The notes beneath the pieces are model-generated. The model worked only from the letters and a program-made list of their open reading frames with translations, did not search any database and had not been told where the DNA came from. Shown piece by piece: positions 16,496-63,369 of a stretch of DNA of 64,000 nucleotides. How positions within the stretch are numbered: position 1 is the first letter of the stretch; each line of letters opens with the position of its first letter. Position numbers and translations under genes: made by a program. Source of the stretch: a virus; IMG/VR virus record IMGVR_UViG_3300047557_002430, positions 1-64,000 of that record, one strand, 5' to 3'.

Positions 16496-16532
16496 GATTC
16501 TTTTTTCTTTTAGTGTAACGGATTGACGAGTT

Positions 16533-16979: not shown

Positions 16980-17006
16980 TCACTAACACACAGGTTTAGT
17001 TTATTT

Positions 17007-20386: not shown

Positions 20387-20431
20387 CTGGCCTTGGCATA
20401 AGTGCTAACATATTAACAGCCACAGCCGACG

Positions 20432-21199: not shown

Positions 21200-21265
21200 T
21201 TCCGTGTGACTAATCTTTAGACGGAGATTATGATCTGTTTTAACAAGACAATATATTGGTAGAAG

Positions 21266-22031: not shown

Positions 22032-22033
22032 TT

Positions 22034-22267: not shown

Positions 22268-22992
22268 TGGCTAGCGTCCCTGGTGCTACTGGAGTTGTCG
22301 GAATACAGGGGCTTAGTGATCTTGTCGATCTTTTAGCGAGCAAAAATATTCCGTCTGATCAAATCGGTAAATTACTGCCTGCTCTTATTCCCGCTGTTGT
22401 TGGCGGTGGCGCCGCCGCTGCTGCCACGGCGGGTCCAGGTATTCTTGCCGGTGCAGGCAACTTTGCTAAAGCTGTAGGAGCCGATTACGTAGCTGAGCGT
22501 TTAGTAAGTGGTCTTGCTGGGTCACCTCAGCCAGCTTATGTTCCCTCTGATCCCGGCGGCAGTAAGTATCTGGTTACTCCTGACCAACAGAAAGCATATA
22601 TTGAGTTCGCGGCCAGAGAAAACTATAACCGAAACATTTATAACTTCATTGCTAGGGCTATCGGACTTCCCCAAATGAAGCCCGTAGAAGAACCTTCAGC
22701 TTATGCTGAGCGCTCTGCTGCCTTAACAAGTAGGCAAATGGCGGAAGCTACTGAACGTGAGATTGCATTGGAACGCGCCAAGCGTGGTTATGACCTTGCA
22801 ATTCAGCAAGTTATTTCCCAAGCTGAATTAGGTAAACAACGGCTTCAATCGCTAGGCGATGTACAAAGGCAACGAGTCGAGTCGGGTTATACAGCAGCTA
22901 CTAATATGTTTAGTGACGTTATGAAGAACGTCGTGGCACGAGAGCGGTTTGAAAATAACGCAACCCTAGCTGAATTAGCTAAACCTGTTTGA
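22267..22992 (+). CDS. Putative internal virion protein
   Basis: 241 residues. An Ala/Gly hydrophobic region (about 40-75, with GGGAAAAATAGPGILAGAG) that could insert in membrane, followed by a long charged helical region (ALTSRQMAEATEREIALERA, about 150-235). A membrane-active segment plus coiled coil is typical of ejected proteins of short-tailed phages. Inferred from composition only. Confidence 0.5.
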   Translation: MASVPGATGVVGIQGLSDLVDLLASKNIPSDQIGKLLPALIPAVVGGGAAAAATAGPGILAGAGNFAKAVGADYVAERLVSGLAGSPQPAYVPSDPGGSKYLVTPDQQKAYIEFAARENYNRNIYNFIARAIGLPQMKPVEEPSAYAERSAALTSRQMAEATEREIALERAKRGYDLAIQQVISQAELGKQRLQSLGDVQRQRVESGYTAATNMFSDVMKNVVARERFENNATLAELAKPV

Positions 22993-23002
22993 GGATCTTC
23001 CC

Positions 23003-23815
23003 ATGACCGATTTTTTAGGCGAGGCAGGTAAAGCAGCAGAACAAATCCTCCGGCTTAGTAACCCGGTGGGGTGGGCTTTTACGCTACACGATGTTATTAA
23101 GGGCACATATCCTCGCCCTGATGGTAATACTCCGTTTGCTACGGGCGACCGCCAGATCGGTTCAAAAGTTGATGATCCTCGATTTGGTACAACTTATTAC
23201 GCTGGTGAAGCTTACGGAACTCAGACTCCTGGATCTTTTATAAAAATTGATCCCACTCGGGCTACGTCTGACCCCCGTGAGCAAGCTATTTTCCGAACTG
23301 TACAACAGCAATTGCGGCAAAAACTTGCCGCCGAAAGTAAGGCTGCAACGACGGGAGGTTCCACGCGGGCTGGTACTAGCAGTGGTGGGGCAAAAGCACC
23401 TTCGTCCGGTCCTGCACCTAAACCGGATACGCCTGCTGTGAGCACTGAAATCCCTCAGAAGGGGGATGCTCAGATGGACGCCATCCTTAAAACAATTAAG
23501 GAATGGGGGAGTCCTGAAAACAGGGCTATTTTCACTCAGCAAGATTTAGAGGCTGAGGTTAAGCGAGCGCTTATAACCAACGCTCTTTCGATGCGTCAGT
23601 CGCGAGAGAATACAAAACGCCAAGTTGAGTTAGAGAATATTAAAGCTTGGCGTGATTTAGAGTCCGCTCGAATCGAAGCTAACTCCCGCCAAGCCGCTGC
23701 GTTAGGCGCCGCTGTGGCCATGTCGATGCAGCCGAATGTTTCGTACATGGATGCCATGCAAAAGACTTATGCTAGTGCTATGGCTCCTTATACAAATTTC
23801 TCTCTGAAGGCATAG
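23003..23815 (+). CDS. Putative internal virion protein
   Basis: 270 residues: an amphipathic N-terminus (FLGEAGKAAEQILRLSNPVG), a Gly/Thr/Ser/Pro-rich linker (about 110-150), and a helical charged C-terminal half (about 160-260). Shares the tripartite layout of its neighbours. No enzymatic motif. Confidence 0.5.
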   Translation: MTDFLGEAGKAAEQILRLSNPVGWAFTLHDVIKGTYPRPDGNTPFATGDRQIGSKVDDPRFGTTYYAGEAYGTQTPGSFIKIDPTRATSDPREQAIFRTVQQQLRQKLAAESKAATTGGSTRAGTSSGGAKAPSSGPAPKPDTPAVSTEIPQKGDAQMDAILKTIKEWGSPENRAIFTQQDLEAEVKRALITNALSMRQSRENTKRQVELENIKAWRDLESARIEANSRQAAALGAAVAMSMQPNVSYMDAMQKTYASAMAPYTNFSLKA

Positions 23816-23819
23816 AAAT

Positions 23820-24629
23820 ATGGTTCTCCCTGTTGCAGCCGCTTTTACATTACCGATAATCCCCGGTCTTGCTTCTGCTGCCGGAATAGGAACTGCTGCT
23901 GCGGGAGCTGCCGGAGCTGCGGGAGCAGGTTTAGGTACTGCCGGATTATTGTCTGGGGCCGGAGCTTTATTGGGCGGCGGCGCTTCTTTAGCCAACGCTT
24001 TTATGGGCGGTGGTGGCGGAGGTTCGGCTGCTCCTGGGTATGACTACGCTTCCTTATATGCGTATCAGGCTCAGCCAGGTAATGTAGCGCTCACCACCGC
24101 TGGCTCAGAGTTAGCCAATTTAATGGCTGGTTATACAGGAACTAAAGGTATTGCTGCAAAAGTCTTAGGTCAGACAGCATACGATCAGTTTGATACCGCT
24201 AAACAACAACAGCAAACTTTATCTGGTCTACAGGCTGGTATTGCTTCTCAATACGCCAGTAGCGCTATCGGTCTTGGTGATTTAGCTGGTAAGGCTAAGA
24301 TTGCCACGGAGATGATGGGGCCTGAGGTAGCCTCGGCATTAACAAAACAATACGCCGAAGGTGTCCAGCAGTTAGCTACCGAAGGTCTTAAGGGTCAAAC
24401 GGCTTTATTAACTCCTGGGGCTACTGCCCTTGCTCAATCTTTCACAGATGCTCAGCGAGCAACAAATAAGTTAGCTGGAGATATCGCTTCGACTAACTTG
24501 CGCATTAAAGAGCAACAAGAAAATACGCGAAACCAAGCATTCTTAGCGCGGCAACAGTTTTCTAATTGGCAAGCGAAAAAACAAGTAGAAACTTCTCTTG
24601 CTATGGGGGCTCATCAAGCTTTTGCATGA
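23820..24629 (+). CDS. Putative internal virion protein with Gly/Ala membrane segments
   Basis: 269 residues. The first 70 residues are strongly hydrophobic and Gly/Ala-rich (AAGIGTAAAGAAGAAGAG, GALLGGGASLANAFMGG). The rest is Gln/Ala-rich coiled coil (LRIKEQQENTRNQAFLARQQ). Reminiscent of T7 gp14-like ejection proteins, although no homology is claimed. Overlaps the next gene by ATGA. Confidence 0.52.
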   Translation: MVLPVAAAFTLPIIPGLASAAGIGTAAAGAAGAAGAGLGTAGLLSGAGALLGGGASLANAFMGGGGGGSAAPGYDYASLYAYQAQPGNVALTTAGSELANLMAGYTGTKGIAAKVLGQTAYDQFDTAKQQQQTLSGLQAGIASQYASSAIGLGDLAGKAKIATEMMGPEVASALTKQYAEGVQQLATEGLKGQTALLTPGATALAQSFTDAQRATNKLAGDIASTNLRIKEQQENTRNQAFLARQQFSNWQAKKQVETSLAMGAHQAFA

Positions 24630-25156
24630 TTAAAGCACAGATTGGCGATTCTACAACTGTTGGAGATTGGTTAAATAGCTTAGATAAGTCTCAAAAGGAC
24701 GCTTTTGTTTTTTACGCTAAGAACGCTACTAGCGATATTGAAGCTTACCTATACGCTCGGTTTTTAAAACCGTCGTACCAAGGGAGCATCTCTGATTTAA
24801 CCGCGTGGGTACAAGAAAAATACCCTAAAGAAGATCTTAGAAAGATCTTGTTAATAGAAATCGATAATATGAAGACAGACATTGATAATGTCCGTAATAT
24901 GACTGTGACTGGGATGTTAGATCATGCAACGGCTGCGACGAAGATCTCTGCTTTGCAAAAAGAACTTCGTTCGCATATTCAGGCTGTTCGGTCTATTTCA
25001 GATGGGCTTGATCGTCGCGGCCTTTTATTGGCTGGTGCTGATCGATGCCTCCGCGAACTAATGCAGACGTTTGATGGTCAGCCAACAATACAGAGCCTTT
25101 TAGATGACTCTGCATTGCTGGTGTGGTCTACTTTGGAGCGAGAGGAGAAATCCTAA
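24626..25156 (+). CDS. Hypothetical helical protein
   Basis: 176 residues from ATG 24626 (MIKAQIGDSTTVGDWLNSL), sharing ATGA with the previous stop. Helical and charged throughout. No motif. Last of the rightward virion-type genes before the leftward glycan pair; overlaps the GH130-like gene by 4 bases at its end. Confidence 0.5.
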   Translation: MIKAQIGDSTTVGDWLNSLDKSQKDAFVFYAKNATSDIEAYLYARFLKPSYQGSISDLTAWVQEKYPKEDLRKILLIEIDNMKTDIDNVRNMTVTGMLDHATAATKISALQKELRSHIQAVRSISDGLDRRGLLLAGADRCLRELMQTFDGQPTIQSLLDDSALLVWSTLEREEKS

Positions 25157-26232
25157 TCAACAGGCTCTAAGAGCTTCGTGATATTTTCTAGCGGGCACCT
25201 GAAGATACCGATGAAGGCGTCATTGACCCCTAGGGACATTACTAGCTCTGTGTTGTCCACGAACGCGCCGAACGGAAGGATAACCGCGGGCTGATTTGAT
25301 ACCGGATTGCCTGTGTAGTCAGTCCATACGATTAATTTGTCGTTTAAGGAACCAGAGAACAGAGGTTTCTTGATTACATGAGTCACTTTCGTAAACTCTT
25401 TATCGATTAGGTAAGCACCAAGATGGTAGAGGAGATAACGCTGTCCGTTATTATCAAAAGCTACATGTTTCCAGTGGTAGAAAATTAAGTAGCCGTACTT
25501 AAGGTCGATCGGCGGAAGGGAGTTAAATGTTGCAGCTCCTTTTGTTACCTCTTCTAAAGCGTCTGTATTTATCTCGATCTTTTTGTTGCCCTCGCTTTCG
25601 ATAATTAAGGGCCTTGTGGAATACAGGCAGCGCAACTCATCCTTATGAGAGAAGAAACACCAGTTCTTCTCTGGTACGCCTTTTTCTAAGTTTTTGCCGA
25701 TCGGAGGGATTGCTGCCCTAACAGCTTCACCGAGAGGATCGATATAGCAAACAACTACTTTCGGTTGATCGAACAGTTTCTTATTACCTTTGTTGTACTT
25801 GCTTGCGTATGTAGACCCGACAAACTGTACATACAGTTCATCATCGGGACCGACAAACAGCCGTGGGTCTTCGTAGCTGAGCCTATGTTTATTCGGTCGG
25901 ATCTTTTTAGCGCCGATGATGGTTTCATCGTCATGCAGGAGACCTAAGTAAATATCTGTTGGAGCATTATTCAGGTAGTTATAGTTTCCGTCATGTTTAA
26001 ATCCAAAGGGTTCCGGCTGCGAACGCCAGGCAATATACGTTTTGTCTTTATGTCGTTGAATTGAGGGGCTGAAGTTAACCACGGAATCTTCTGGGAGACC
26101 TCGTGCAATTCGCGTAAAGGTTCCACCTAAAGCTTCCGCTTGGCCATACACATCTGGTATGCCTTTTTGCAGAGTCCGCACCGGATACAGGCAGTGCGAA
26201 TTGGTGTGATAAAAACGGTGCGTAGTTTGCAT
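25153..26232 (-). CDS. GH130-like five-bladed propeller glycan enzyme
   Basis: 359 residues. Motifs recall the GH130/GH43-like beta-propeller superfamily: VVNFSPSIQRHKDKTYIAWR (about 48-67), YEDPRLFVG with the EDPR signature, and VPEKNWCFFSHKDELRCLYS with the EKNW motif found in GH130 and related mannosyltransferases. It may phosphorolyse or transfer mannose-type sugars. Lies 3 bases downstream of a GT4 gene, so the two form a leftward glycan unit. Substrate unknown. Confidence 0.62.
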   Translation of the reverse strand: MQTTHRFYHTNSHCLYPVRTLQKGIPDVYGQAEALGGTFTRIARGLPEDSVVNFSPSIQRHKDKTYIAWRSQPEPFGFKHDGNYNYLNNAPTDIYLGLLHDDETIIGAKKIRPNKHRLSYEDPRLFVGPDDELYVQFVGSTYASKYNKGNKKLFDQPKVVVCYIDPLGEAVRAAIPPIGKNLEKGVPEKNWCFFSHKDELRCLYSTRPLIIESEGNKKIEINTDALEEVTKGAATFNSLPPIDLKYGYLIFYHWKHVAFDNNGQRYLLYHLGAYLIDKEFTKVTHVIKKPLFSGSLNDKLIVWTDYTGNPVSNQPAVILPFGAFVDNTELVMSLGVNDAFIGIFRCPLENITKLLEPVD

Positions 26233-26235
26233 GGT

Positions 26236-27408
26236 TCAGTTCAGGAGATCTTTTACAGCGTGAGAAAAACCGGCAGCTACGTTTTCCCAGCGATATTCAT
26301 TTCGCTGCGTGACTGCGTAGCAAGAATCAGCGACTTCGTTGTAAACCTCTTTGTTGTGGTAAAGCTCATTTAGGTTTTCTACAGCATGGTCTACGTTAAT
26401 AAGACCCCGCTCCACCCCAAGATCTTTATCGACAACCCACGTGGCGATATCGGTCAGAAGTGCTGCTTCCTCCCAGATGTCGGCGCAGGCGGTGTGATTC
26501 GGGACTACCTGAGGTTTGCGGCAGCTTGCGTGTTCAAACGAAACCAGACCCCAACCTTCGCCATCTGCGGTGTTGATGCCAACGTCACAGGAGTTATAAA
26601 TCCTGTTGAGCATTTCGTCGGAAGGCGCATCCAAGTAATTAAGTTCTGTAGAGGTAAGCACCAAACGTTTTACAGGGTCTAGGCCATACTTCTGCATTTC
26701 CCTGTTAAACAGAGGAATCACATCCCACCCCATGTCCTTCGCCCCCATATGGAGGTAAAGCATGGTCTCTGGTTTATCTACAGCGAATTTGGCGAAGGCT
26801 TGGATCGTCAGATCGATCCTCTTTCTCGGTTGATTTCGGTTTGCATTCAGAACGATAAATTTATCGTTCGGCAATCCGAGAGCTGCTCTGGCTTCTTCCT
26901 TAGGCATCGGCGTAAATTTACCGACATCAACCCCGTGGGGAAGAACACCTAAACGTTCGGCTTTGACACCGTGCTTTAAAATGCGGTGAGCGCAGTTAAT
27001 CGTAAAGGTGATTGCCATATCCCAATGAGGGATATTGCGCAACATGTCAGAAAAATACGCTTCGCTATCAATTGGAAAGTAACAAACAAATTTAAACTTA
27101 AGCTCATCTTTCATGAACTGGATGCGCTCCCAAACTTGGTTGCAAATCCAGATATCCTGAAGGCAGATAAAAACGTCGGGTCTTACTTTCTGTAGGATCT
27201 CAGGAAGCCTGGGGATCCCAAAACGATCTCCGCAATGCACGTTAGTTGCGGGATACACAGTAAACGGGTAGTCGTGCGGGTCTCCCGAATAATTCAGCCC
27301 CAGCACGTGGACTTCATGTTCCTTAGCTAAATGAGCTAGTACACTATGTGTTACCCGAGCGAACCCAGTATTACAACACGCATCACCGTACCAAAGAATT
27401 TTTGCCAT
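26236..27408 (-). CDS. Glycosyltransferase family 4-like protein
   Basis: 390 residues, GT-B fold. N-terminal strand and Gly loop ILWYGDACCNTGFARVTHS, mid-region LGLPNDKFIVLNANRNQPRK (start of the second Rossmann half), and C-terminal GWGLVSFEHASCRKPQV with the GT4 E-x7-E-like donor site. Probably transfers a nucleotide-activated sugar. First gene of the leftward pair; its start faces the terminase gene. Confidence 0.82.
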   Translation of the reverse strand: MAKILWYGDACCNTGFARVTHSVLAHLAKEHEVHVLGLNYSGDPHDYPFTVYPATNVHCGDRFGIPRLPEILQKVRPDVFICLQDIWICNQVWERIQFMKDELKFKFVCYFPIDSEAYFSDMLRNIPHWDMAITFTINCAHRILKHGVKAERLGVLPHGVDVGKFTPMPKEEARAALGLPNDKFIVLNANRNQPRKRIDLTIQAFAKFAVDKPETMLYLHMGAKDMGWDVIPLFNREMQKYGLDPVKRLVLTSTELNYLDAPSDEMLNRIYNSCDVGINTADGEGWGLVSFEHASCRKPQVVPNHTACADIWEEAALLTDIATWVVDKDLGVERGLINVDHAVENLNELYHNKEVYNEVADSCYAVTQRNEYRWENVAAGFSHAVKDLLN

Positions 27409-27461
27409 TCTTAATTGGCATTGAAGTACAGTTAATATAGCGGTACTGTCAACTTACTGAT

Positions 27462-28982
27462 ATGCCAAGTCGGGAAACGTTTGCGTATCGGCGGGCAGCT
27501 CAGATGCGGGCGCTACGCGCAACAGAGGATACGTCAAATACAGTTGACACTATTTATTCTAAAGCCGCTAACGACTTCCATACGTTCTGTACGCTTCTGG
27601 ATAAGCCTCCAGCAAAGCACATGTTGGAGTGGCACCAGCACCTAATTACAGGGGAATCGAACAAATACCTTTTAGATATCGCAGGGCAGAATCTCTCCAT
27701 CCTGGCGCCGCGCGGCTCAGCAAAGTCCACAGTCCTTAACCTCTTTACCGCGTGGGTTATTGGCCGCCACACGACAGCTAAGCGCCCTTTACAGATTATT
27801 TACGTCTCTTACAACATCGCAACGGCTATTCCGAAGAGCAGAATTATCCGTCAGATCATCGATTCTCCTGAATTTAAAAAAGTTTTTCCGAAAGTTCAGC
27901 TAAGAGCAGGGATGCAGTCGGATATTGGTTGGTCGATTGATTTTGAATATGCAGGTATCCCTCGGATTGGTGACGAAGAATTTACTTTACGAGCTGCTGG
28001 TCTACGAGGTTCGATTACGTCTAAACGTGCGCATCTCGTAATCGTGGATGACCCAATAAAATCGAGCGCGGATATTAAAAATCCGGCGATTCGGGAGGAG
28101 ATGAACAATAACTGGTCGTCTGTTATCGCTCCGATTATCTTCGAGGGCGGCCGAGCGCTCTGTTTGGGCACTCGATTCCACCCTCTCGACATCCATAAAA
28201 CGATGTTTGTGCCCGAAAAAGGGTGGAAGCAGGTTACGCAAGAGGCTATTACGTATAGCAACATGGGCGAACCGGTCAGTTATTGGCCCGAACAATGGTC
28301 TGCAGAGTATTTGTTGGGTCAAAAAGAGCTAGATCCTGTTGCTTTTGCCTTCCAGTATCAGCAACAGCCCGTTATGACGTCAGATTTAGTGGTTTCACCT
28401 GATTTATTGGTGAAAGGGGAAGTTGTAACCGAGTTCGATTCCCTCGCCGTGGGAATAGATCTCTCTGCAAGCAAAAATGAGACCAGTGATTACACAGCTT
28501 TTGTGTTAGGAGGGCGTTTAAAAGATAAATACTACATAATTGACGCGCATCAGTGCCGTTCGATCGGAAATTTAGAGAAAATTGATCTCTTGTGCGACAT
28601 GTTACTGGAATGGGGCATCCTTACGCAGCACGACGGTGTATTTTTACCCACATATTCGACTATTACGCTCGTTGTAGAGTCTGTCGCGTATCAAGCGTCT
28701 CTTGCGGCGGACTTAAAACGCGTTCTGATCAATGAACGTGAGCTGGGTAACCTTCATATTCATGAAGTTAAAGGTTTTAGAGGGGACAAGATCGCCCGGT
28801 TCCGTGGAACTTTAGGATTGCTAGAAAACAAGAAAATTACGTTCAATAAATACCGTAAATTCGACGCTTTGTTCGATCAGTTGATCAACGTCGGCGCCAC
28901 GGCTCACGATGACCTGCTGGACGCCTACACCTGGCTAATCCAGTTTTTACAAAGACGTGGTGAATTTTCGATTGAATACTGA
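27462..28982 (+). CDS. Terminase large subunit
   Basis: 506 residues. Walker A LAPRGSAKST (about 81-90), Walker B HLVIVDD (about 191-197), and coupling motif near GTRFHPLD. The C-terminal RNase H-like nuclease has Asp in VGIDLSASKNETSDY (about 332) and HDDLLDAYTW near 490. It pumps DNA into the prohead and cuts concatemers. Full length. No small subunit was recognised nearby. Marks the start of the head module. Confidence 0.9.
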   Translation: MPSRETFAYRRAAQMRALRATEDTSNTVDTIYSKAANDFHTFCTLLDKPPAKHMLEWHQHLITGESNKYLLDIAGQNLSILAPRGSAKSTVLNLFTAWVIGRHTTAKRPLQIIYVSYNIATAIPKSRIIRQIIDSPEFKKVFPKVQLRAGMQSDIGWSIDFEYAGIPRIGDEEFTLRAAGLRGSITSKRAHLVIVDDPIKSSADIKNPAIREEMNNNWSSVIAPIIFEGGRALCLGTRFHPLDIHKTMFVPEKGWKQVTQEAITYSNMGEPVSYWPEQWSAEYLLGQKELDPVAFAFQYQQQPVMTSDLVVSPDLLVKGEVVTEFDSLAVGIDLSASKNETSDYTAFVLGGRLKDKYYIIDAHQCRSIGNLEKIDLLCDMLLEWGILTQHDGVFLPTYSTITLVVESVAYQASLAADLKRVLINERELGNLHIHEVKGFRGDKIARFRGTLGLLENKKITFNKYRKFDALFDQLINVGATAHDDLLDAYTWLIQFLQRRGEFSIEY

Positions 28983-29040
28983 TTAACTCGCTTTCAGCGT
29001 CATAGATTGTTCCTGTTCTCTCGGCGGTGCCGAGCTAAAA

Positions 29041-29913
29041 ATGTCTAAGAAAATCTGGGTCGCCATCACAGCACACAATCCTTTGGCGCGTTTAAACCCG
29101 CTTATTAATGTTCTAACTGAGTACCAAAAATATCCTCATGACGTTCACATTAATGTGTACGTTAATTATGAGGCTCAAGAGGACGTGCCAACACTAGAGG
29201 CGGTGTTGGAACCCTTTAGCGATCTGAACGTTCAGATAAAAGTAGCTTCGCCTGACTATAAAGGTTGGTTTCTCACGTGGGCGCATAAAACAGACTTAGC
29301 ACTCGCAATCCTTAATCGCGAAGCAGACTATTACGTCTATCAAGAAAATGATGTCCTGATTCGTAAGGATAACTTTGATTATTACGTTAAGTGGAAGCCT
29401 GCTCTTAATCGTTACGGCTTGGAGCCTGGATTTGCTCTTTATGAAAGTTTCGAAGGTAAACGAGTACCAATCGGTAACTATGAAAAATGGAGCCTAACCA
29501 AGGAGACACCTAAGGTTTGGCACGACTTTGGTTTTATGGTTCCAAAAATCCTCGTGGTTGATTATGAGGTTGACTTCTTTATCCAGTTGGGTAGCCCGTA
29601 TTACTGCGGCATGATCTTGGATCAATTAGACGGAGAGCAGTATATTCGGTCTGACAGTTTTGACCCAGAAAAGAGTTATGTAAAAACTGGAATTAGGAAC
29701 TGGCCTATTGCTGATCGCAGCTCCATGGGCTTGGCCTTTGAAGATCTTCCCCACGGGTATGAGCACAGGCGTTGTGTTCCGGTCTATAAAAACAAAACCC
29801 AGTATCAAATCCTTGAGTGTGGCCTAATTCGGCACGACGACGATAAATACTCTAAAAACCTAAAAGAGAGACACAACAAATTATTATGTGTTGAGGAGAT
29901 GCTCGTCGTGTGA
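29041..29913 (+). CDS. Putative glycosyltransferase (GT-A-like)
   Basis: 290 residues. Opening IWVAITAHNPLARLNPLINV resembles GT-A enzymes, and YYVYQENDVLIRKDNFDYY has ENDV in the DxD position (about 100-118). The C-terminal part has ECGLIRHDDDKY. Family not certain. Inserted between terminase and portal genes, where glycan genes are unusual. Confidence 0.55.
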   Translation: MSKKIWVAITAHNPLARLNPLINVLTEYQKYPHDVHINVYVNYEAQEDVPTLEAVLEPFSDLNVQIKVASPDYKGWFLTWAHKTDLALAILNREADYYVYQENDVLIRKDNFDYYVKWKPALNRYGLEPGFALYESFEGKRVPIGNYEKWSLTKETPKVWHDFGFMVPKILVVDYEVDFFIQLGSPYYCGMILDQLDGEQYIRSDSFDPEKSYVKTGIRNWPIADRSSMGLAFEDLPHGYEHRRCVPVYKNKTQYQILECGLIRHDDDKYSKNLKERHNKLLCVEEMLVV

Positions 29914-29974
29914 TTTAAAGTGCGGCATAGTGGGGCTGAATACGTCCACATTTGTTACTTCTACTTAGGGAAAC

Positions 29975-30277
29975 ATGAGTGCCAAACCCTTCCACGAAGC
30001 GACGCCTACCGATTACGACGATTTTTGGAACGATGCAATGGAACGATCTTCTGGTTCAATCCTGCAGGCTGATAAAGCGGTTAGACCAGATTACTACAAA
30101 CGTAATGGTTTAGAATGTTATGACGTTCAGCGAGCTTCTATGGGGCTCGTAAAATATCAGGGCTATCTTGAAGGATGTGCCCAGAAATACCTGTGGCGTT
30201 GGGAACAGAAAAACGGGAAACAGGATCTGCAAAAAGCGGTCGAATATTTGAGTAAACTTATAGAAACACTCGATTGA
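29975..30277 (+). CDS. DUF3310-like protein
   Basis: 100 residues. The C-terminal 70 follow the DUF3310 pattern: PDYYKRNGLECYDVQRASMG, then GCAQKYLWRWEQKNGKQDLQ and KAVEYLSKLIETL. The family is common in phages, sometimes fused to nucleotide kinases; its role is unknown. Good pattern match. Confidence 0.75.
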   Translation: MSAKPFHEATPTDYDDFWNDAMERSSGSILQADKAVRPDYYKRNGLECYDVQRASMGLVKYQGYLEGCAQKYLWRWEQKNGKQDLQKAVEYLSKLIETLD

Positions 30278-30278
30278 T

Positions 30279-30566
30279 ATGGACGTAAGAGCTTTTGGCG
30301 GTTCGTTTTATCCGTATAGCGCCAACCTTCCTTATACGAGTGGGTTTTTAGTCACTGCCAGCGGGCAGTCCACAAATTTCCCTGCTTGCCGTGCTGTTTA
30401 TATTGATGACGGAAACAGCAACCAGAATCTTCAAGTAATTTTGACGGATGCTCCCGGTACTCCGATTACCATCCGTAAGGTAACAGCAAACGCTCTCATT
30501 CCGATTTCAATCACAACCATCAGTGGTGCCGAAACAACCGTGGAAAAAGTTGTGGTGCTCTACTGA
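30279..30566 (+). CDS. Small beta-rich structural protein
   Basis: 95 residues, beta-strand rich (TASGQSTNFPACRAVYIDDG, VTANALIPISITTI), with the composition of small virion decoration or tail-spike base proteins. One base overlaps the next ATG. No named family. Confidence 0.55.
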   Translation: MDVRAFGGSFYPYSANLPYTSGFLVTASGQSTNFPACRAVYIDDGNSNQNLQVILTDAPGTPITIRKVTANALIPISITTISGAETTVEKVVVLY

Positions 30567-30796
30567 TGGCCGAAATCGCTAAAAAAAGAGATCCGCAAAA
30601 GTGGGCTCGGGCTAAGGCTAAGGCCCGTGCCAAACTCGGCGGCCATAGTGCACGGGCGATGCAGCTTGCGACTAAGTATTATAAAGAAATGGGAGGACGT
30701 TACGAAGGTAAAAAGTCCTCTGAAAATCGCCTTTCGCGGTGGTCTAAAGAAGACTGGCAGACACGAGAGGAGTACGAAAAATCTAAGGAAGACTGA
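30566..30796 (+). CDS. Small basic protein with GHSARAMQLA motif (DUF5872-like)
   Basis: 76 residues, very basic. KWARAKAKARAKLGGHSARA, MQLATKYYKE, then GGRYEGKK and LSRWSKEDW. The HSARxMQLA...YK...GY.GKK..N.L..W...W pattern recurs in phage and giant-virus proteins; I believe it is DUF5872-like. Possibly DNA or virion associated. Overlaps neighbours by one base each. Confidence 0.58.
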   Translation: MAEIAKKRDPQKWARAKAKARAKLGGHSARAMQLATKYYKEMGGRYEGKKSSENRLSRWSKEDWQTREEYEKSKED

Positions 30797-31008
30797 TGGC
30801 TTACACAACGACTGACCTGTTAACCGCTCTCGGCGGCAAAAAAACTTTTTCTACCGAGGTTCTGCCAGAATCCAAGGATTTTGAGGCTTACTTAATAGGT
30901 TCAGATTACTCTTCGATTATGAAATCTCTTTTGGATAGAACTAAGGATGCCCTTCTTTTAAAAGCCTATGCTGATCGGAAACTTATAGACCCCTCTGCGA
31001 GTATGTAA
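30796..31008 (+). CDS. Hypothetical protein
   Basis: 70 residues, mixed, beginning MAYTTTDLLTALGGKKTFST. Coupled by one-base overlap to the previous gene. No recognised motif. Confidence 0.5.
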   Translation: MAYTTTDLLTALGGKKTFSTEVLPESKDFEAYLIGSDYSSIMKSLLDRTKDALLLKAYADRKLIDPSASM

Positions 31009-31009
31009 T

Positions 31010-31225
31010 ATGTCGGACTTAGCTAGGGAAAAGGGTCGGACTGAGCGGTATTTACCCCGAGCAGCTTGGGCAGCACTTTCTGCCGAAGAACGTCGCGCAA
31101 CTGACGAAAAAAAGAAGGCCGCCACACGCGGGGATAAACCTGTGAATACTAGAGTACCTAATACCAATAAAGCTAGAGAAGCTCGTAAAAAGGCTTCCGA
31201 GTACATCAAGCGTAAAGCTCAATGA
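31010..31225 (+). CDS. Small basic protein, YLPxAAW type
   Basis: 71 residues, Lys/Arg-rich. RYLPRAAWAALSAEERRATD followed by KKKAATRG and VPNTNKAREARKKA. Similar small basic proteins occur beside GHSAR-type proteins in phages and large viruses. Probably DNA-binding or capsid-internal. Overlaps the next gene by ATGA. Confidence 0.55.
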   Translation: MSDLAREKGRTERYLPRAAWAALSAEERRATDEKKKAATRGDKPVNTRVPNTNKAREARKKASEYIKRKAQ

Positions 31226-31548
31226 TTAATCCGCAGAGCCCTTTCGGTCAAGCAAGCCAGTTTTTTGGTTCTGCTTTCAATGACATGAAACAAGCGTCGG
31301 AGTTTCAGGAACGTGTTCAGGGCTCTAACAGCCCTAAAAATTTATATTCGGAAGAATATGACCGTTCTCATATGTACGGGTCTGTGCCTCCGCGAACTTC
31401 TGCGTATAGCCCGGATCAAACGAGTGTCAGTAGTGTCGAGTCACTGAAAGAAGAACTCCTATCGACCGCTCGCGCTCAACAGCGTTCCTCGAACGGAAGT
31501 ATCGCAGTGCGGGCAGGCGGTGGTATTAATACTGCCATTCGACGCTAA
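31222..31548 (+). CDS. Hypothetical protein, possible virion component
   Basis: 108 residues, Ser/Gln/Asn-rich (FGQASQFFGSAFNDMKQASE), C-terminus basic. No motif. Part of the head-module operon. Confidence 0.48.
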   Translation: MINPQSPFGQASQFFGSAFNDMKQASEFQERVQGSNSPKNLYSEEYDRSHMYGSVPPRTSAYSPDQTSVSSVESLKEELLSTARAQQRSSNGSIAVRAGGGINTAIRR

Positions 31549-31573
31549 TATACTGACAGTCGCGTGACTGTTT

Positions 31574-32416
31574 GTGCTGTTCGACTGCTTTTTATATTTC
31601 GACGAGAAGGAACTTCTTGAACTTCGCTACGAGTTGTTAAAAGACGTTGTAGACGGTTTTATTATCACAGACGGAAACAGGACGTTTAGAGGAGACCCTA
31701 AACCTTTTACCTGCGTAGATACAATCAGGGAGTTAGGTTTACCTGAGGATAAGATTCAGGTTCTACACGTTGAACTTCCCACGCCGGAAGAGTGCTCAAT
31801 CCCGTGGTCGCGGGAATATGCGCAGAGGGATGCCTTAGGGGTCGGTATGCGTATGTGTCCTCCGGACTCCGTGTTCTTTTTTAGTGATGTTGACGAGATT
31901 CCCAAACCAGAAAAACTTTTAGAAGCTGTCGAAGTAGCTAAACAGGATCCTTCGCGCTGTGTGCGACTTTCTATGCCTATGTTCTATGGGCGCGCGGATT
32001 TGCGAGTTAAGGATCCGAACGGAGATGACTCGAAAGCCCCAAATAATTGGACATGTGGGACGATCGTTTTATATGAGCATCTCGATCGCACACCCTCTCA
32101 GATTCGTATGAACCCTAACGATATCGTCTTAGGGAACTGTGACGCAGGGTGGCATTTCTCGTGGATGGGAGACTCATCCCGTATGAAACGTAAGGTGACT
32201 TCGTTTTCTCATTGTTTCGATGACATCCCTAACTCAGTCGCACCGGCTTACAGCGAGGAAATGTTGGATCATTTAGACAACTATAAAGCACAAGCTGGTA
32301 ATACAGACCCATTGGGACGTACGGATCATATTTTAGAGCTTTATCCGCATGACCTTTTACCGCCAGAATTGTTTAAACTTGAGAGAGTACGCAAGTATTT
32401 GCTTCCCGATGGCTAG
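31574..32416 (+). CDS. Glycosyltransferase family 17-like protein
   Basis: 280 residues from GTG 31574. FDCFLYFDEKELLELRYELL with VVDGFIITDG matches the GT17 N-terminus, and VFFFSDVDEIPKPEKLLEAV carries the DVDEIP metal/donor motif. GT17 enzymes add N-acetylglucosamine in animals and have many phage and bacterial relatives of unknown acceptor. It overlaps the next gene (ATGGCTAG). Confidence 0.82.
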   Translation: MLFDCFLYFDEKELLELRYELLKDVVDGFIITDGNRTFRGDPKPFTCVDTIRELGLPEDKIQVLHVELPTPEECSIPWSREYAQRDALGVGMRMCPPDSVFFFSDVDEIPKPEKLLEAVEVAKQDPSRCVRLSMPMFYGRADLRVKDPNGDDSKAPNNWTCGTIVLYEHLDRTPSQIRMNPNDIVLGNCDAGWHFSWMGDSSRMKRKVTSFSHCFDDIPNSVAPAYSEEMLDHLDNYKAQAGNTDPLGRTDHILELYPHDLLPPELFKLERVRKYLLPDG

Positions 32417-42806: not shown

Positions 42807-43361
42807 ATGGCCTCGACGAGCACTAACAAACAACCTTGCTTAATCGATCGCCCCTTTCTTAGGGGTGCTCGCGTTACATCGGCTACGCAGAAGTGCGATC
42901 CCACTAACCCAAACCTCACCGATCTAATTCAATTAGTCCGCGTGGGGGATCTTCCTTCTGAAGATGCTGCGCTTGTAGAGGACATCACAATCGTCAGTAA
43001 TGAGGATTATCCGAATAACGCTGGCGTTCGTACAGCCGATATAGGACTTTACGTGTATGCGCCTAACCAGGCGGCACCTTCAACATCGTCGGCTTTAATG
43101 GTTGGCCGTTTTGAGGTTGGCCTGAGCGGCGATACATTTGGTTATCCTCTTCCTGTTCAACTTTTTGCTGTTAATGCTCCTGTTCCCAAAGTAGGAGACA
43201 CGTCCATAGTGGCTCCCATACAAGTTGGTAAGGGAGAGGGTTTGTACCTCGAAAAAGGTTACATCCTCTGTGCTGGATACATCGGTAACGGCCCTTCATC
43301 TGTATCGGGTGGCCTTAGTTCGTCCGGTATTACAATCTGGTGTCAAGGAGGGTTCTATTGA
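42807..43361 (+). CDS. Beta-rich structural protein
   Basis: 184 residues, beta-rich (NNAGVRTADIGLYVYAPNQA, MVGRFEVGLSGDTFGYPLPV), ending GITIWCQGGFY. Looks like a virion jelly-roll or tail-associated protein. Followed at once by a terminator. No family recognised. Confidence 0.52.
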   Translation: MASTSTNKQPCLIDRPFLRGARVTSATQKCDPTNPNLTDLIQLVRVGDLPSEDAALVEDITIVSNEDYPNNAGVRTADIGLYVYAPNQAAPSTSSALMVGRFEVGLSGDTFGYPLPVQLFAVNAPVPKVGDTSIVAPIQVGKGEGLYLEKGYILCAGYIGNGPSSVSGGLSSSGITIWCQGGFY

Positions 43362-43864
43362 TAAAGAGTGGGCTCAACATGAGCCCATTTTTTGTTCCTT
43401 TTTATTAAAGAAATACATACTTGAGAAACACCATATTTATTAGCTAAAGATAGCTGTGTTTCGTTTGTAGTTGCGAGCAGTAGTTTTATCTCAGCTACTT
43501 CTCTTTCAGTAAGTTTGCTTGCTCTATTTTTAGATCCAGTATTATTAGGTTGATTAAACTTTCTTTTATTTTTTTGTTGTTCTGATCTAGAAGACCATTT
43601 ACAGTTTGAGGGTTCGTAGTTTCCGTCATTATTTATACGATCCAAGGAATATTCTTGGGAGGGTTTTTCTCCCATATCGGTTATAAAATTTAGAAAACCT
43701 TCTTTCTGGTATTTTTTTGTTTTATCTGGCAGCCACCGGTCACATATTGTTATTCCTCTTCCTCCGTATCTGGGATAAGCCGAATGATTTTTTCTGTAGC
43801 AACGATCTACCATAGATTTATAAGTATTCCAGAGAGGATGCGCACACAAACATACATTTGTCAT
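43355..43864 (-). CDS. HNH homing-type endonuclease with C-terminal HTH
   Basis: 169 residues from ATG 43864; a GTG three codons up is possible. HPLWNTYKSMVDRCYRKNHS, then YGGRGITICDRWL, and SLDRINNDGNYEPSNCKW give the HNH signature common in phage homing genes. The C-terminal SKLTEREVAEIKLLLATTN plus YGVSQVCISLIKRNKKW is a recognition HTH. It crosses the terminator and overlaps the rightward gene by 7 bases. Confidence 0.9.
   Translation of the reverse strand: MTNVCLCAHPLWNTYKSMVDRCYRKNHSAYPRYGGRGITICDRWLPDKTKKYQKEGFLNFITDMGEKPSQEYSLDRINNDGNYEPSNCKWSSRSEQQKNKRKFNQPNNTGSKNRASKLTEREVAEIKLLLATTNETQLSLANKYGVSQVCISLIKRNKKWAHVEPTLYQ
43369..43393 (+). terminator. Intrinsic terminator
   Basis: TGGGCTC-AACAT-GAGCCCA followed by six T, eight bases past the 43361 stop. 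The same DNA encodes the C-terminus of the leftward HNH gene. Confidence 0.9.
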
Positions 43865-43894
43865 AATGTTCACAGAAACTTATTCTAAGGTATC

Positions 43895-45427
43895 ATGGCC
43901 AGAAAAAAAGGGTCCGACAATTTTGGGTTTCGTGATTTCAAGGCATCAAAACCTGTAGAGCAACCGAAAACGATACGGGGCTCGGACAATCGTTTAGAGT
44001 TGTCCAGCCCTTTGCCGTTTAAGCGGAGATTTCGTCCAGCTACGGGGACGAAAGATTTTAGTGTTATAAGCGAGTATGACTACGCTTCGCTCTGGGTGCG
44101 TTGGCGCCGTGGCTATGAGCTTGCGATGTACTCTCAGCAAGCTTATGACGGATTAACTTACTCTTTTAAATATTTTCCTCAGGGAAACCCAGGAACAGGT
44201 GTCTTCGTCCCTGGTGCTTGCTTTATGTATCCCACAACGCGTTCTGACATGCGTATGTGGATGGTTGGGGTCAGACCTCGTGACTCTTTTAACTTTCTAA
44301 ATTTCGGTTACTCCGTATCGTCTGTAACTAAGTACAACGAAGACACTTATGCTGTTCAATTAAATACTCGGTTTGGTGCCCCTATATCCTTCTTTACAGG
44401 AGAGGTTTTATCTAATCGATTTAATGCAGATGGATCTGAAAAACAGTACGGGTATAACAACTACACGGTCACAGCCGTGGGTTTTAATAACGTCCCTCTA
44501 ACACCTACGTTTGCCCCTATTTTTAATACACTGTTTTTATCAATAAGCAGAGATAAAAGTTGGTCTGTTGTTGACGCAACGACACTTGCTGTTCCCGCGT
44601 CTGGTCCGCCAGCTATTGGCGAGTATCTGACAACTGAAATGCGGGCACAATGCACATGCCCTGATTTCCTCAATCGTGAGAATTTAAATTTATGGGATGT
44701 GTCTCTGCGTCAGCGGTATCCATACACGCGTGTTCAGAACATGGATCCGGGTTTTTATGACGCTGGTCCAAACCAAGCACAGCGGCTTAATAACTCCTCA
44801 GATGATCCCGGCTATGCACGGGCCTTCGGATTTATCTACTTAAACGAAATTTATAACATAGCAAGTTACTCTGAAGCTAGTTATTCAGACCCTAACTTGT
44901 ATTACTTTCAGCCCAAATGGTGTAAGCATATATACGCTGCTATGTGGGATATGCAGTTGAGATACAACCAGACGACAACGACTTCACCGTGGGTTCTTCA
45001 TCAGCCGAATGATGAGCCTATGAACGAATACTACAGGGAGAAATTCGATAGAGATTTAGAGAAACAGTTTACGTTCTTGAAGCGCGAGAAAGATCTGGTG
45101 TGGTGGCAACGATATAGCCCGACAAAGGACGGTATGCCTGACCGCATCATGTTGCCTGATATGTACAACATGATGGCGAAAACATTAAATGTTGGGGGGT
45201 TAGACAGCGCCACGCCTATGCGTCCGCAGGCGTTTGACATGTTTACGTTTGATACCTTTGATCCCTTTGCTCCTGTAAGTCCAGAAAACCTACAGGTTTA
45301 CGACGGCGGTACGTATGCGTACGGTTCCCCGGTATCAATGCCGGTTAACATACTGGACGGAACAACGTATAAAAACGGTACACAAGCTTTTGTACCTGCT
45401 TTTGCTTTAAACGGAGGAACTTATTAA
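43895..45427 (+). CDS. Large virion protein with split SWIM-like CxC...CxH motif
   Basis: 510 residues, aromatic and beta-rich, beginning with a basic tail (ARKKGSDNFGFRDFKASKP). At about 252 is AQCTCPDFLNRENLNLW and at about 342 WCKHIYAAMWDMQ, together matching CxCPDF...CKHI of SWIM zinc fingers but with some 88 residues between. Placed between head and fibre genes, so a tail or head-tail protein is likely. It overlaps the next gene by one base. Confidence 0.55.
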   Translation: MARKKGSDNFGFRDFKASKPVEQPKTIRGSDNRLELSSPLPFKRRFRPATGTKDFSVISEYDYASLWVRWRRGYELAMYSQQAYDGLTYSFKYFPQGNPGTGVFVPGACFMYPTTRSDMRMWMVGVRPRDSFNFLNFGYSVSSVTKYNEDTYAVQLNTRFGAPISFFTGEVLSNRFNADGSEKQYGYNNYTVTAVGFNNVPLTPTFAPIFNTLFLSISRDKSWSVVDATTLAVPASGPPAIGEYLTTEMRAQCTCPDFLNRENLNLWDVSLRQRYPYTRVQNMDPGFYDAGPNQAQRLNNSSDDPGYARAFGFIYLNEIYNIASYSEASYSDPNLYYFQPKWCKHIYAAMWDMQLRYNQTTTTSPWVLHQPNDEPMNEYYREKFDRDLEKQFTFLKREKDLVWWQRYSPTKDGMPDRIMLPDMYNMMAKTLNVGGLDSATPMRPQAFDMFTFDTFDPFAPVSPENLQVYDGGTYAYGSPVSMPVNILDGTTYKNGTQAFVPAFALNGGTY

Positions 45428-46002
45428 TGACATCAACCCCTGTTGTCTTTCTCTTAAAAAGATCTGGTCTCTCCTCAGACCGTCCTAGCGGCGTTATTCT
45501 GCAGGGAGGCGAGCCTGCGCTTTGTTTTGGTGCTGCAGACCCAGGACTTTACTTTGAAGATTCTGCGGGTTCTGTTCGCAAAATAGGTCCGGCTCATTAC
45601 GGAACGACGGCGCCTAACTCTTCTCCGCAGGGATTAGCGGGAAACTCTACCGGTGAGTTATGGACCGATAGCTCAACTTCAGAGTATTACTTAAAAGTTT
45701 GGACAGGATCAGCGTGGCAGAAAGTAGGGGCTGCGTTTTCCGACTCCGCCACCATAGCTACCTCGGCTGCTACTGCGGGTTCCGCTGTATTAGCGTCTGG
45801 CGCTGTTTTGGCGTCCGGAGCTATTTTGGCCTCCGGAGCAATCCTTGCGTCAGGTGCTATTAAATGCGCAGACATTGGAGTGAGTGGATTACCCGCCCCC
45901 AGCAGCTATGCTTCCGGGTCGCTCTTCTACCAAATACAGCCTTCAGGATCCTTTGGTGCGGGACTGTTTGTTAGGGCCTCAAATACTTGGCTTCAGGCCT
46001 GA
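45427..46002 (+). CDS. Fibre/adhesin protein with LASGAI repeats
   Basis: 191 residues. An N-terminal region with a GELWTDSSTSEYYLKVWTGS module (about 77-96), then short repeats VLASGAILASGAILASGA (about 117-140) and a Gly/Ser-rich C-terminus ending FVRASNTWLQA. The ASG repeats occur in many fibre proteins from 53 kb on. Convergent with the Dps gene, overlapping by 10 bases. Confidence 0.65.
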   Translation: MTSTPVVFLLKRSGLSSDRPSGVILQGGEPALCFGAADPGLYFEDSAGSVRKIGPAHYGTTAPNSSPQGLAGNSTGELWTDSSTSEYYLKVWTGSAWQKVGAAFSDSATIATSAATAGSAVLASGAVLASGAILASGAILASGAIKCADIGVSGLPAPSSYASGSLFYQIQPSGSFGAGLFVRASNTWLQA

Positions 46003-46532
46003 TCGCGCAGCGTGGCCTTTAAAAACCACGCGGCTTTGAACATCATTTTGACAAGATCCGCCATGTAGTTTTCTACATCGGGTGCTTGTGCTTCGCGAGC
46101 GAGAACGCCGGTTTCCTTCGCCATCATGCCTGCGTTCTCTAAATTCTTTACGTAGGTCGTCAACGCCTCGCGGGCGGTGTAAGATTTAACATGTTTGAAA
46201 CCTTTGTACGCTCCTGTTAAACCTCGTGCACACATAGGCATGAGGTAATCCATGGAGCGAACAAACTCAGCAACACTGTCGAATTGATCGATGTGATCTT
46301 CGTACTGTTGTTTTAAAAACTCGTGAATAGGTAAAAACAGAGGGCCTTCAATATTTAAGTGAATGAGGTGAGCTTGTAAGTACAGTTGATTTAAATAAGA
46401 CCCAACGACTACAAGTTGATCGATAAGTTCGCCAACTGTAGCCGTCGGTTTTTGCTCCGGCGCCTCGGACTGCATAAATCCCCCAGCGTGGGGCATCTCT
46501 GCGGGTGTTTCGAAAGCGCCGGAGAGAGTCAT
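45993..46532 (-). CDS. Dps/ferritin-like protein
   Basis: 179 residues. After a roughly 30-residue extension comes a Dps four-helix fold: AHLIHLNIEGPLFLPIHEFL (about 54-73) and DHIDQFDSVAEFVRSMDYL (about 79-97). His58, His70, Asp85 and Glu89 reproduce the spacing (12, 15, 4) of the Dps ferroxidase ligands, although the usual Asp four residues after the second His is Lys74. Dps cages bind iron or DNA and quench peroxide. Encoded with an HTH gene two bases upstream. Confidence 0.8.
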   Translation of the reverse strand: MTLSGAFETPAEMPHAGGFMQSEAPEQKPTATVGELIDQLVVVGSYLNQLYLQAHLIHLNIEGPLFLPIHEFLKQQYEDHIDQFDSVAEFVRSMDYLMPMCARGLTGAYKGFKHVKSYTAREALTTYVKNLENAGMMAKETGVLAREAQAPDVENYMADLVKMMFKAAWFLKATLRDQA

Positions 46533-46533
46533 A

Positions 46534-46803
46534 TCAGAATTGGCAGGCCGAAGGCGCCGCCACGGTTTCTTCAGCCTCTACTTTAGCGGTAGAAGAACTT
46601 TGAAGATACTCTTCGAGTGCTGTTTTATTCACTCGGTACAGCGATTTAGCACCGTTGGGCTGGAGGTTAACGTAAACGGATTTAGGCCAACCGCCAGGCT
46701 GATTAGCCTCCGACAGAGCAATACGCTTACGAACAAAACCGGAGCTGCAGTTTAAAAGCTCAGCAGTTTCTGCAATGGTCAGGAGTGTCTTACCGTCCGG
46801 CAT
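46534..46803 (-). CDS. Excisionase-like HTH protein
   Basis: 89 residues from ATG 46803 (MPDGKTLLTIAETAELLNCS). The first 60 residues are a winged helix of the MerR/excisionase HTH_17 type (LLNCSSGFVRKRIALSEA, then SLYRVNKTALEEYLQ), and the tail is acidic. It lies 2 bases before the Dps gene, so it may regulate it. No integrase is visible in the window. Confidence 0.7.
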   Translation of the reverse strand: MPDGKTLLTIAETAELLNCSSGFVRKRIALSEANQPGGWPKSVYVNLQPNGAKSLYRVNKTALEEYLQSSSTAKVEAEETVAAPSACQF

Positions 46804-46930
46804 TGTATATGCGGAGAAAAAGCAACGCATTTATATTAGCTCTATTTGTTCTGTGCACAGCGGGACTTGTGCGACTAAAGGAGTTCTTAAGATTTGTTTG
46901 AGCTAGCATGAATTCACAAAGGTAAGACTC

Positions 46931-47179
46931 ATGACGATCCGGCTCGCTGGTGAAATTTTTAAAGGATACAACGTCCCTAAGCGAGATGTTCAAGGCGGAA
47001 AAGAGTTCGCCGTGGCGGCTAAGGAGGGAGATCAGGTTCGTTTAGTGCGGTTCGGAGACCCCAATATGGAAAATAAGAGCGACGATCCTAAACGACGTGC
47101 TGCATTTCGCTCTAGGCACAGTTGTGACGAGAAAAAGAGTAAGTTAACACCAGGCTACTGGAGTTGCAAATCATGGTAG
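46931..47179 (+). CDS. Small phage protein, FGDPNM...RHSCD...YWSCKSW type
   Basis: 82 residues. KEGDQVRLVRFGDPNMENKS, then KRRAAFRSRHSCDEKK and TPGYWSCKSW. This strongly patterned small family recurs in phages and some large viruses, usually near head genes. The two Cys and the His may bind metal. Role unknown; I do not name the family. Confidence 0.65.
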   Translation: MTIRLAGEIFKGYNVPKRDVQGGKEFAVAAKEGDQVRLVRFGDPNMENKSDDPKRRAAFRSRHSCDEKKSKLTPGYWSCKSW

Positions 47180-47264: not shown

Positions 47265-47516
47265 ATGGCTTCGCGTAAGTCTGATGAGTCTCAGAATATA
47301 AACTGTCAGCTTACACTTGAAGACGAGTTTGTTCTGACCCGAATCAGAGCAAAGGCGTACTCTTTATCTAATAAAGATCGAGACCAGTATTTGTGGTCTA
47401 CCGTTTTCAAATTAATTTGCCGCGAACGTGCCTATAAAGCTGTTATGGCTGAAGTAGGAATAGCGATGGACACTAACATGAACCTGTTCGATGATGACCT
47501 TGAATTAGAAGAATAA
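47265..47516 (+). CDS. Hypothetical protein
   Basis: 83 residues, helical, polar N-terminus and acidic tail (MNLFDDDLELEE). DEFVLTRIRAKAYSLSNKDR resembles small cyanophage proteins between head genes, but no named family is recognised. Confidence 0.52.
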   Translation: MASRKSDESQNINCQLTLEDEFVLTRIRAKAYSLSNKDRDQYLWSTVFKLICRERAYKAVMAEVGIAMDTNMNLFDDDLELEE

Positions 47517-61645: not shown

Positions 61646-62518
61646 TTAGATACAGAGTTTATTATAAAGATTCGTAGCTTCTTGTTTCCATATAAGTTTC
61701 CACTTAGCCCAGAATAACTTGCATTCTTCTTGCAGTTGTTTTGTTTCAGTTTCGCTCATATTTTTTACTCTTTCAAAGCATTCCTGCCACGATTCCTCTA
61801 ACACAAAAGGCAACGTGCTTTCTCCATAGAACACGCCGTGCCAATACGAAGGATAAATTTTAAACTGATTTGAGTATTTCACGGTAATAGGGATACACCC
61901 TGCTTCTAGTGCTTCATATAACCTAAAAGAGTCCATGCTGTCCTGCCCTGCGGGACACAGAGCGAACACACTGTCCCTCATTAACTGGGAGTATTTCTGA
62001 GTCTCTAATCCGTCTGCGGCTCCGAATCCGCTGCACTCTTTATGTATATAGGGCTTTAATGGTTTGAACAAATCGAGCAGTTGTTTGCGCTCACCGTGGG
62101 GAGTACCCATAAAACACCACACGTGATCTCTTACAGATTTAGTAGGCTCCTCGCAAAATCCTCTCTTATAGCCCAACCCAAAAACAGTTACTTTTGGGTG
62201 CTTTAACTGCATTGGATTTAAGTAGTTTCTTAGAAGTCTTACACAATTAGGATCGTGCAGCCATTCACAGGGATCCCTGAGGTTTTCATCACTAAGGAGA
62301 ACAATTGCGTATTTCTTTCCTTCTGCCCTCAGCTCATCTAAAACAAACCTATAAGGGACTGCATGATTGCAGATAATGATGCTGTCCGTAATATTTACTG
62401 CTATGCCTTCGACTACAGGTTTTATAGGTGTCCCACAATCTTTAAATAGGTGTGTAAGCCAGTCAAGCTCAAATAGAGTTTTATCCTGAGTTAGCCATTG
62501 TATCTCAGGGGTTTTCAT
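61646..62518 (-). CDS. Exostosin-like glycosyltransferase (GT47-type)
   Basis: 290 residues. The C-terminal MRDSVFALCPAGQDSMDSFR, LYEALEAGCIPITV matches the exostosin (GT47) signature 'l..S.F.LcP.G...ds.R..EAl..GCIPv'. The N-terminal half has SIIICNHAVPYRFVLDELR. A distinct family from the other glycosyltransferases here. Leftward accessory gene after the fibre module. Confidence 0.75.
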   Translation of the reverse strand: MKTPEIQWLTQDKTLFELDWLTHLFKDCGTPIKPVVEGIAVNITDSIIICNHAVPYRFVLDELRAEGKKYAIVLLSDENLRDPCEWLHDPNCVRLLRNYLNPMQLKHPKVTVFGLGYKRGFCEEPTKSVRDHVWCFMGTPHGERKQLLDLFKPLKPYIHKECSGFGAADGLETQKYSQLMRDSVFALCPAGQDSMDSFRLYEALEAGCIPITVKYSNQFKIYPSYWHGVFYGESTLPFVLEESWQECFERVKNMSETETKQLQEECKLFWAKWKLIWKQEATNLYNKLCI

Positions 62519-62562
62519 GTAACTCCAGTCTCTTCGGGCGCTATCGTAGCAGCGAATGTCAT

Positions 62563-63369
62563 TTGCGGTTTCACAAAGTTTTGGATAAGTTAAATTTTCT
62601 TACTGGTTTACCTCGTTCTGGTAACACACTGATTGCTTCCATATTAAACCAAAATCCTGCTATTTACGCTGGCCCACACAGTCCTCTAGTTGAACTTCTT
62701 TGGCGGGCTCAAACTTTATTAACTGGCGAGGAACTCAAAATGTTTCCTCATACCGCTCCTTTAATACACACGCTTAAGTCCATACCTAAAGCGTATTACA
62801 GCCATTGTTCGGCTGATTTAATCCTTGATCGAGGCACGTGGGGATGCCCAGAGAACTTAACGATGATTACAGAGTATATAACCCCAACGCCAAAATTTCT
62901 TGTTCTAGTTCGTCCTATTGAAGAAGTTATTGTTTCGTTTTTACGGTTGGCTCAGAGGAACCCCGATTCTCCTCTTGCTTCTATTTCATCAGTCACGGAG
63001 CAGTTTGAATATATCGTTAATAACCTAACGATGTTTAGGAAAGGATTACTAGCAGTTTTATCTTTACATGCGAACCGTGATCGTTACCAATCTCTGTTTA
63101 TTGATTACAACAACTTTGTTTCAGATCCAGTTAAAGAATTAGAAAGAATATATGCGTTCTTCGAACTTCCTTTATTTACTCATTCACTTACAAATATACA
63201 ACAGCTAACAATTGACTCTATTACTTATGATGATTCTGGGTTTGAATTTACTGATTTACATACGCTCAGGGAGCATAATATTTCTAAAACAGAATGTGTT
63301 GTAGAGGACTATTTACCTTTTGAAATCATTCAAGAGTGTCGAGACTTTAATGTCTGGCTTAAGGAATAA
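62563..63369 (+). CDS. Sulfotransferase (PAPS-dependent)
   Basis: 268 residues from TTG 62563 (start uncertain). FLTGLPRSGNTLIASILNQN (about 12-31) is the 5'-PAPS binding loop, and FLVLVRPIEEVIVSFLRLAQ (about 111-130) the 3'-phosphate binding region with Arg and Ser. Transfers sulfate from PAPS to a sugar or tyrosine. Fits a role in decorating a surface glycan made by the nearby transferases; substrate unknown. Confidence 0.82.
   Translation: MRFHKVLDKLNFLTGLPRSGNTLIASILNQNPAIYAGPHSPLVELLWRAQTLLTGEELKMFPHTAPLIHTLKSIPKAYYSHCSADLILDRGTWGCPENLTMITEYITPTPKFLVLVRPIEEVIVSFLRLAQRNPDSPLASISSVTEQFEYIVNNLTMFRKGLLAVLSLHANRDRYQSLFIDYNNFVSDPVKELERIYAFFELPLFTHSLTNIQQLTIDSITYDDSGFEFTDLHTLREHNISKTECVVEDYLPFEIIQECRDFNVWLKE

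Follow-up and report, generated by a model that had tools for sequence, protein, structure and literature searches.

Dps proteins of bacteria and phages

In canonical Dps proteins, the ferroxidase site is built from two His and one Asp of one subunit together with an Asp and a Glu of the partner subunit, and the acidic residue 67 reaches the second iron site (B site) via a water molecule (PMC6675082). Among the His-type cyanobacterial Dps proteins, represented by NpDps4 and TeDpsA, NpDps4 was found to oxidize Fe2+ with O2 although its Asn67 is noncoordinating, and to bind Zn at a His-rich site (PMC6675082). Dps is also encoded by Lactobacillus phages, the gut phages of the Gratiaviridae/Flandersviridae, and the phages SU10 and G, and relief of iron or peroxide stress was proposed for the proteins of the Lactobacillus phages (PMC6669764) and of the gut phages (PMC8008677). 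The closest described system is Synechococcus phage S-EIV1 (KJ410740), the namesake of a recognized cyanophage lineage (PMC5332604), in which the gene product AHV82153 is annotated as "DNA-binding ferritin-like protein".

Here, we analyzed a stretch of viral DNA of 64,000 nucleotides (positions 1 to 64,000 of IMG/VR record IMGVR_UViG_3300047557_002430, hereafter the window) carrying a dps gene at 45993-46532 on the minus strand. Its 179 aa product is an ortholog of AHV82153 with 48% identity and the same invariant ligands, and both phages share a lineage by their capsid, terminase, and portal genes. The S-EIV1 protein differs, however, by a Gly at position 74 and a mildly basic N-terminal tail, and its gene lacks an HTH partner and occupies another genome position. 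Compared with canonical Dps (E. coli, PDB 1dps; TpF1, 2fjc; PA0962, 8ff9), the phage protein has the same BC-helix fold and the equivalents of H51, H63, D78, and E82, but shares only ~15-28% identity, carries a Lys in place of D67 and an acidic N-terminal tail, and replaces the Trp beside the first ligand His by Leu (HWN to HLN). In addition, the signature RSMDYLMPMC sets the phage clade apart from canonical Dps. The His-type cyanobacterial proteins resemble phage Dps in the nonacidic residue 67, the cyanobacterial setting, and the fold; phage Dps nevertheless keeps an Asp at position 78, which is His in NpDps4. The Dps proteins of the other phages mentioned above come from unrelated phages and show roughly 13-24% identity to the window protein in structural alignment. 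The S-EIV1 ortholog was thus already annotated, and the modest variant features of phage Dps are the clade-wide noncanonical B site and, in one sub-lineage, a fixed HTH partner.

Identification of a phage-encoded mini-ferritin

The initial annotation had proposed a Dps-like ferritin on this strand and at this position, and both the gene model and the assignment were borne out by profiles, predicted structure, and conservation. The product matched the curated Pfam profile Ferritin PF00210 with 46.5 bits (cut-off 24.5, E=4.6e-12) and the PHROG profile phrog_3636 with E=1.3e-24, the latter family being named "DNA binding protein". A sequence search of the PDB retrieved the Dps proteins TpF1 and those of C. 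jejuni and P. aeruginosa, whereas the NCBIfam Dps equivalogs matched far under their cut-offs.

An AlphaFold model calculated from a 104-sequence alignment (pLDDT 87.9, pTM 0.79) replaced an earlier one from 31 narrow sequences, which had reached a pLDDT of 67 and fused the first helices. The predicted helices A (33-60), B (66-93), BC (102-108), C (120-147), and D (151-178) follow a disordered acidic N-terminal tail (residues 1-25), and the C-terminal tail is very short. This order corresponds to the Dps layout, with the short BC helix present and a fifth (E) helix absent. In a Foldseek comparison, the top 50 PDB matches were all Dps-type proteins (probability 1.00), and the model superposed on the closest solved Dps structures at about 1.3-1.6 Å over ~145 residues. 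The comparison with Dps structures that had been suggested at the outset hence returned a four-helix ferritin bundle and no differing fold. Judged by profiles, model, and ligand conservation together, the match lies far beyond chance and the product is a genuine Dps-type mini-ferritin.

An altered ferroxidase site throughout the phage clade

Alignment with Dps of E. coli K-12 assigned His58 (codon 46359-46361, minus strand as for all following codons; A site) to H51, His70 (46323-46325) to H63, Lys74 (46311-46313) to D67, Asp85 (46278-46280) to D78, and Glu89 (46266-46268) to E82. The four ligands at Dps spacing and the exchange of one usual Asp for Lys, both recognized in the initial annotation, were accordingly exact against this reference. 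Two scans of IMG/VR yielded 160 dps loci, some of which represent the same contig region found twice, and collapsing identical ORFs left 115 phage Dps sequences, one of them partial. His58 and His70 are kept in all 114 sequences covering that region, Asp85 and Glu89 in 115 of 115, and W169 is likewise invariant among the phage relatives. Position 74 in turn is acidic in none of 114 relatives (95 Lys, 14 Gly, two Gln, two Asn, and one Arg), which is why we did not file phage Dps as having a canonical ferroxidase center, with its acidic residue 67 at the B site.

As the equivalent position also varies among cellular and other comparators (Asp, Glu, Gln, and Met), the loss of the acid is not unique to phage Dps; the unusual part is the charge-reversing Lys fixed across most of the phage clade. 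Pairwise dN/dS values of ~0.01-0.10, with dS being saturated for distant pairs, point to strong purifying selection on dps. With invariant ligands and a position 74 that is never acidic, this argues for a ferroxidase site altered clade-wide instead of a decayed gene. Assignment to the His-type cyanobacterial center (NpDps4/TeDpsA) was rejected, since this center needs a His at position 78 and Asp85 is invariant. The natural series of Lys-for-Asp exchanges would itself provide a test of the role of the B-site carboxylate in Dps.

dps as a probable core gene of S-EIV1-type cyanophages

Comparison of the 87-kb record with S-EIV1 revealed identities of ~69-70% for the major capsid protein, 53% for the terminase, and 43% for the portal, and further genes are common to both. 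These gene sequences place the phage in the S-EIV1 cyanophage lineage. The photosynthetic host assumed in the initial annotation thereby gains indirect support, as the major capsid protein shares ~70% identity with its Synechococcus phage counterpart.

Near relatives of the window capsid gene were present on 23 contigs, 19 of which carry dps; the four others are fragments of 22-31 kb, and dps is present in all 11 contigs of at least 33 kb. Conversely, the capsid gene was found in 31 of 41 dps records and in 16 of 16 with a length of at least 62 kb. Many of these records are fragments, so that the co-occurrence is to be read as a strong tendency and not as proof; given its consistency in long contigs, dps most likely belongs to the core genes of this widespread S-EIV1-type lineage. 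In the S-EIV1 clade, dps lies in a different genome region and the HTH gene is absent, and retention at two different genome positions indicates a value of the gene itself. Given an apparent core gene and S-EIV1 as a cultured isolate, its value to infection is directly testable. The statement that dps genes are uncommon in phages was right in part: the rarity is overstated, as GenBank already lists the S-EIV1 ortholog under a ferritin-like annotation and other phages are known to have Dps folds, and in this lineage dps occurs in every long contig checked.

A structure search showed Dps folds in many unrelated phages. A Dps-like fold was also detected in long proteins of uncultured phages named "prohead protease" (BFVD A0A6J7WPK9, A0A6J7XDU5, and A0A6J7WIS1; Foldseek probability 1.00), and these models suggest that Dps domains are fused to head-assembly proteins in other phages. 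Beside dps in S-EIV1, the gene at 17153-18619 of KJ410740 is labeled "sulfate adenylyltransferase", although its sequence does not resemble one by eye. Homologs of this gene were found at only five of the dps loci, and a misannotation is possible.

The HTH-dps cassette and its neighbors

Directly upstream of dps, and separated from its start at 46532 by a 1-nt gap, an HTH gene of the HTH_17/excisionase type is located on the same minus strand (46534-46830), with a conserved start, probably ATG, at 46803. Its product scores about at the cut-offs of the respective profiles. On the other side, a minor tail protein-like gene (45427-46002, plus strand) converges with dps, the 3' ends overlapping by 10 nt, and a conserved small gene (phrog_7595; 46931-47179, plus strand) diverges from the cassette. 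The antisense placement among virion genes with an HTH partner, as initially described, was confirmed by this arrangement. The order of tail genes, antisense dps and HTH gene, small conserved gene, NblA-like gene, and lytic transglycosylase gene recurs in 76 of the 160 loci, which supports the notion of a self-contained cassette. Within the window sub-lineage, the HTH gene is always paired with dps, and among near relatives its product shows higher conservation (82-92%) than Dps does (64-72%). The examined regions upstream of the HTH gene contained no conserved operator or strong promoter.

The HTH protein carries a conserved Cys96 in >90% of relatives, usually as third residue from the C-terminus, and to judge from this conservation the Cys might represent a redox or metal handle. 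Also near dps, a small protein resembling NblA (phycobilisome degradation; 47265-47516, plus strand) is kept throughout the sub-lineage. As it scores 18.6 bits against a Pfam cut-off of 25, with eight of 31 relatives matching at E<=0.01, its identity as NblA is only possible.

Proposed function and alternative explanations

Iron and H2O2 are both hazards in an illuminated cyanobacterium. Based on the site conservation and the predicted fold, we consider it reasonably probable that phage Dps acts as a detoxifier of iron and peroxide during infection, with its second iron site being weakened. The product would assemble into a mini-ferritin of presumably 12 subunits, binding Fe2+ during infection at sites between paired subunits. 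There, Fe2+ would be oxidized by H2O2 and/or O2 and then stored as a ferric mineral. Fenton damage to DNA and proteins would thereby be suppressed in the illuminated host while the phage replicates. Since the A-site ligands (His58, Asp85, and Glu89) are kept along with His70, iron binding and oxidation remain likely, whereas the clade-wide replacement of the B-site carboxylate, mostly by Lys or Gly, probably leaves the second iron only weakly bound. Slower or O2-driven oxidation may be the consequence, by analogy with NpDps4. In the window sub-lineage, dps and the gene of the small HTH protein, both antisense to the tail genes, would be expressed together, probably on a schedule of their own. 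Two features speak against such a function: a Lys at the B site might repel the second iron and stop turnover, and the canonical Trp beside the first ligand His is Leu in phage Dps. Control of iron and peroxide may be no less a part of the cyanophage take-over of photosynthetic cells than the better-known photosystem and pigment genes.

The same exchange at position 74 gives rise to a different reading, in which Lys74 keeps the second iron out. The protein would then form a catalytically dead or metal-buffering shell that sequesters one metal ion per site (Fe2+, Zn2+, or another) and shows no ferroxidase turnover. A position that is nonacidic in 114 relatives, with a charge-reversing Lys predominating, would fit such a shell, as would the Zn at the His-rich site of NpDps4 (PMC6675082). 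Asp85 and Glu89 are fully invariant, however, cellular Dps comparators depart at residue 67 as well (Gln and Met), and NpDps4 is active with Asn67 (PMC6675082); we consequently rate this explanation as rather improbable. Turning to the cage as a whole, it could primarily bind or pack DNA, either condensing the host nucleoid or protecting phage DNA, with iron chemistry being secondary. Membership in the Dps family and the PHROG family name agree with such a role, and so do the relatives without the HTH gene on the S-EIV1 side, whose N-terminal tails are mildly basic (mean net charge +1.2, e.g., KPKAPGKSK). The window protein in contrast does not possess the mobile Lys/Arg-rich N-terminal tail of E. 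coli-type DNA-binding Dps. Its tail has a net charge of -3 and contains one Lys, the window clade averages -4.4, and the core is acidic too. Lysine-tail DNA condensation is therefore unlikely for the window protein by its residue composition and less unlikely on the S-EIV1 side, and the idea of host-DNA condensation raised in the initial annotation is weakened. Considering also that the four invariant metal ligands are needless for DNA packing and that the C-terminal tail is so short, we regard a DNA-packing cage as unlikely overall. We attach a still lower probability to a structural role, with the Dps-fold protein residing in the particle or serving as an assembly factor. The location of dps within the tail gene module and the Dps-like fold in some "prohead protease" proteins of uncultured phages would be in line with it, but dps and its own HTH partner run antisense to the virion genes, and in the S-EIV1 clade dps lies outside the tail module.

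Beyond detoxification of iron and peroxide, a broader interpretation may be offered tentatively, and we hold it to be doubtful as a whole: a phage-only Dps branch with a permanent replacement, in most cases Lys, of the second-iron carboxylate would be fixed as a core gene of S-EIV1-type phages and, in one sub-lineage, part of a two-gene cassette with a dedicated HTH regulator whose conserved C-terminal Cys might sense redox state or iron.

Origin of phage Dps and additional genome features

When 84,980 genomes of bacteria and archaea were scanned twice by a procedure detecting close relatives only, no close cellular relative of phage Dps was found, leaving a recent host origin of the gene unsupported. 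The best plasmid-borne Dps proteins were 25-30% identical. In a quick tree, a single branch with full support separated the nine comparators from the entire set of phage sequences; owing to one long-branch comparator (E. coli), the deep tree is unreliable, and this split is the only part used. From the compared sequences, the phage Dps branch is either old or fast-evolving.

Regarding other features of these genomes, the major capsid gene is intact in the window and interrupted in three relatives (L261, 227-560; L259, 405-1193; and the contigs of L002, L014, and L025). One of the inserts matches the Rfam group I intron model (RF00028, 72 bits), and another holds an ORF that by eye looks like a homing endonuclease. 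An HNH endonuclease gene (phrog_374/3377) is inserted antisense between virion genes of the window (43355-43873, minus strand). Two further window regions (15600-32400 and 61646-63369) harbor sugar and glycan genes, including RmlD-like and GDP-mannose dehydratase-like genes, an FkbM methyltransferase, several glycosyltransferases, a GH130-like gene, and a sulfotransferase. This gene content suggests modification or synthesis of a surface glycan by the phage.
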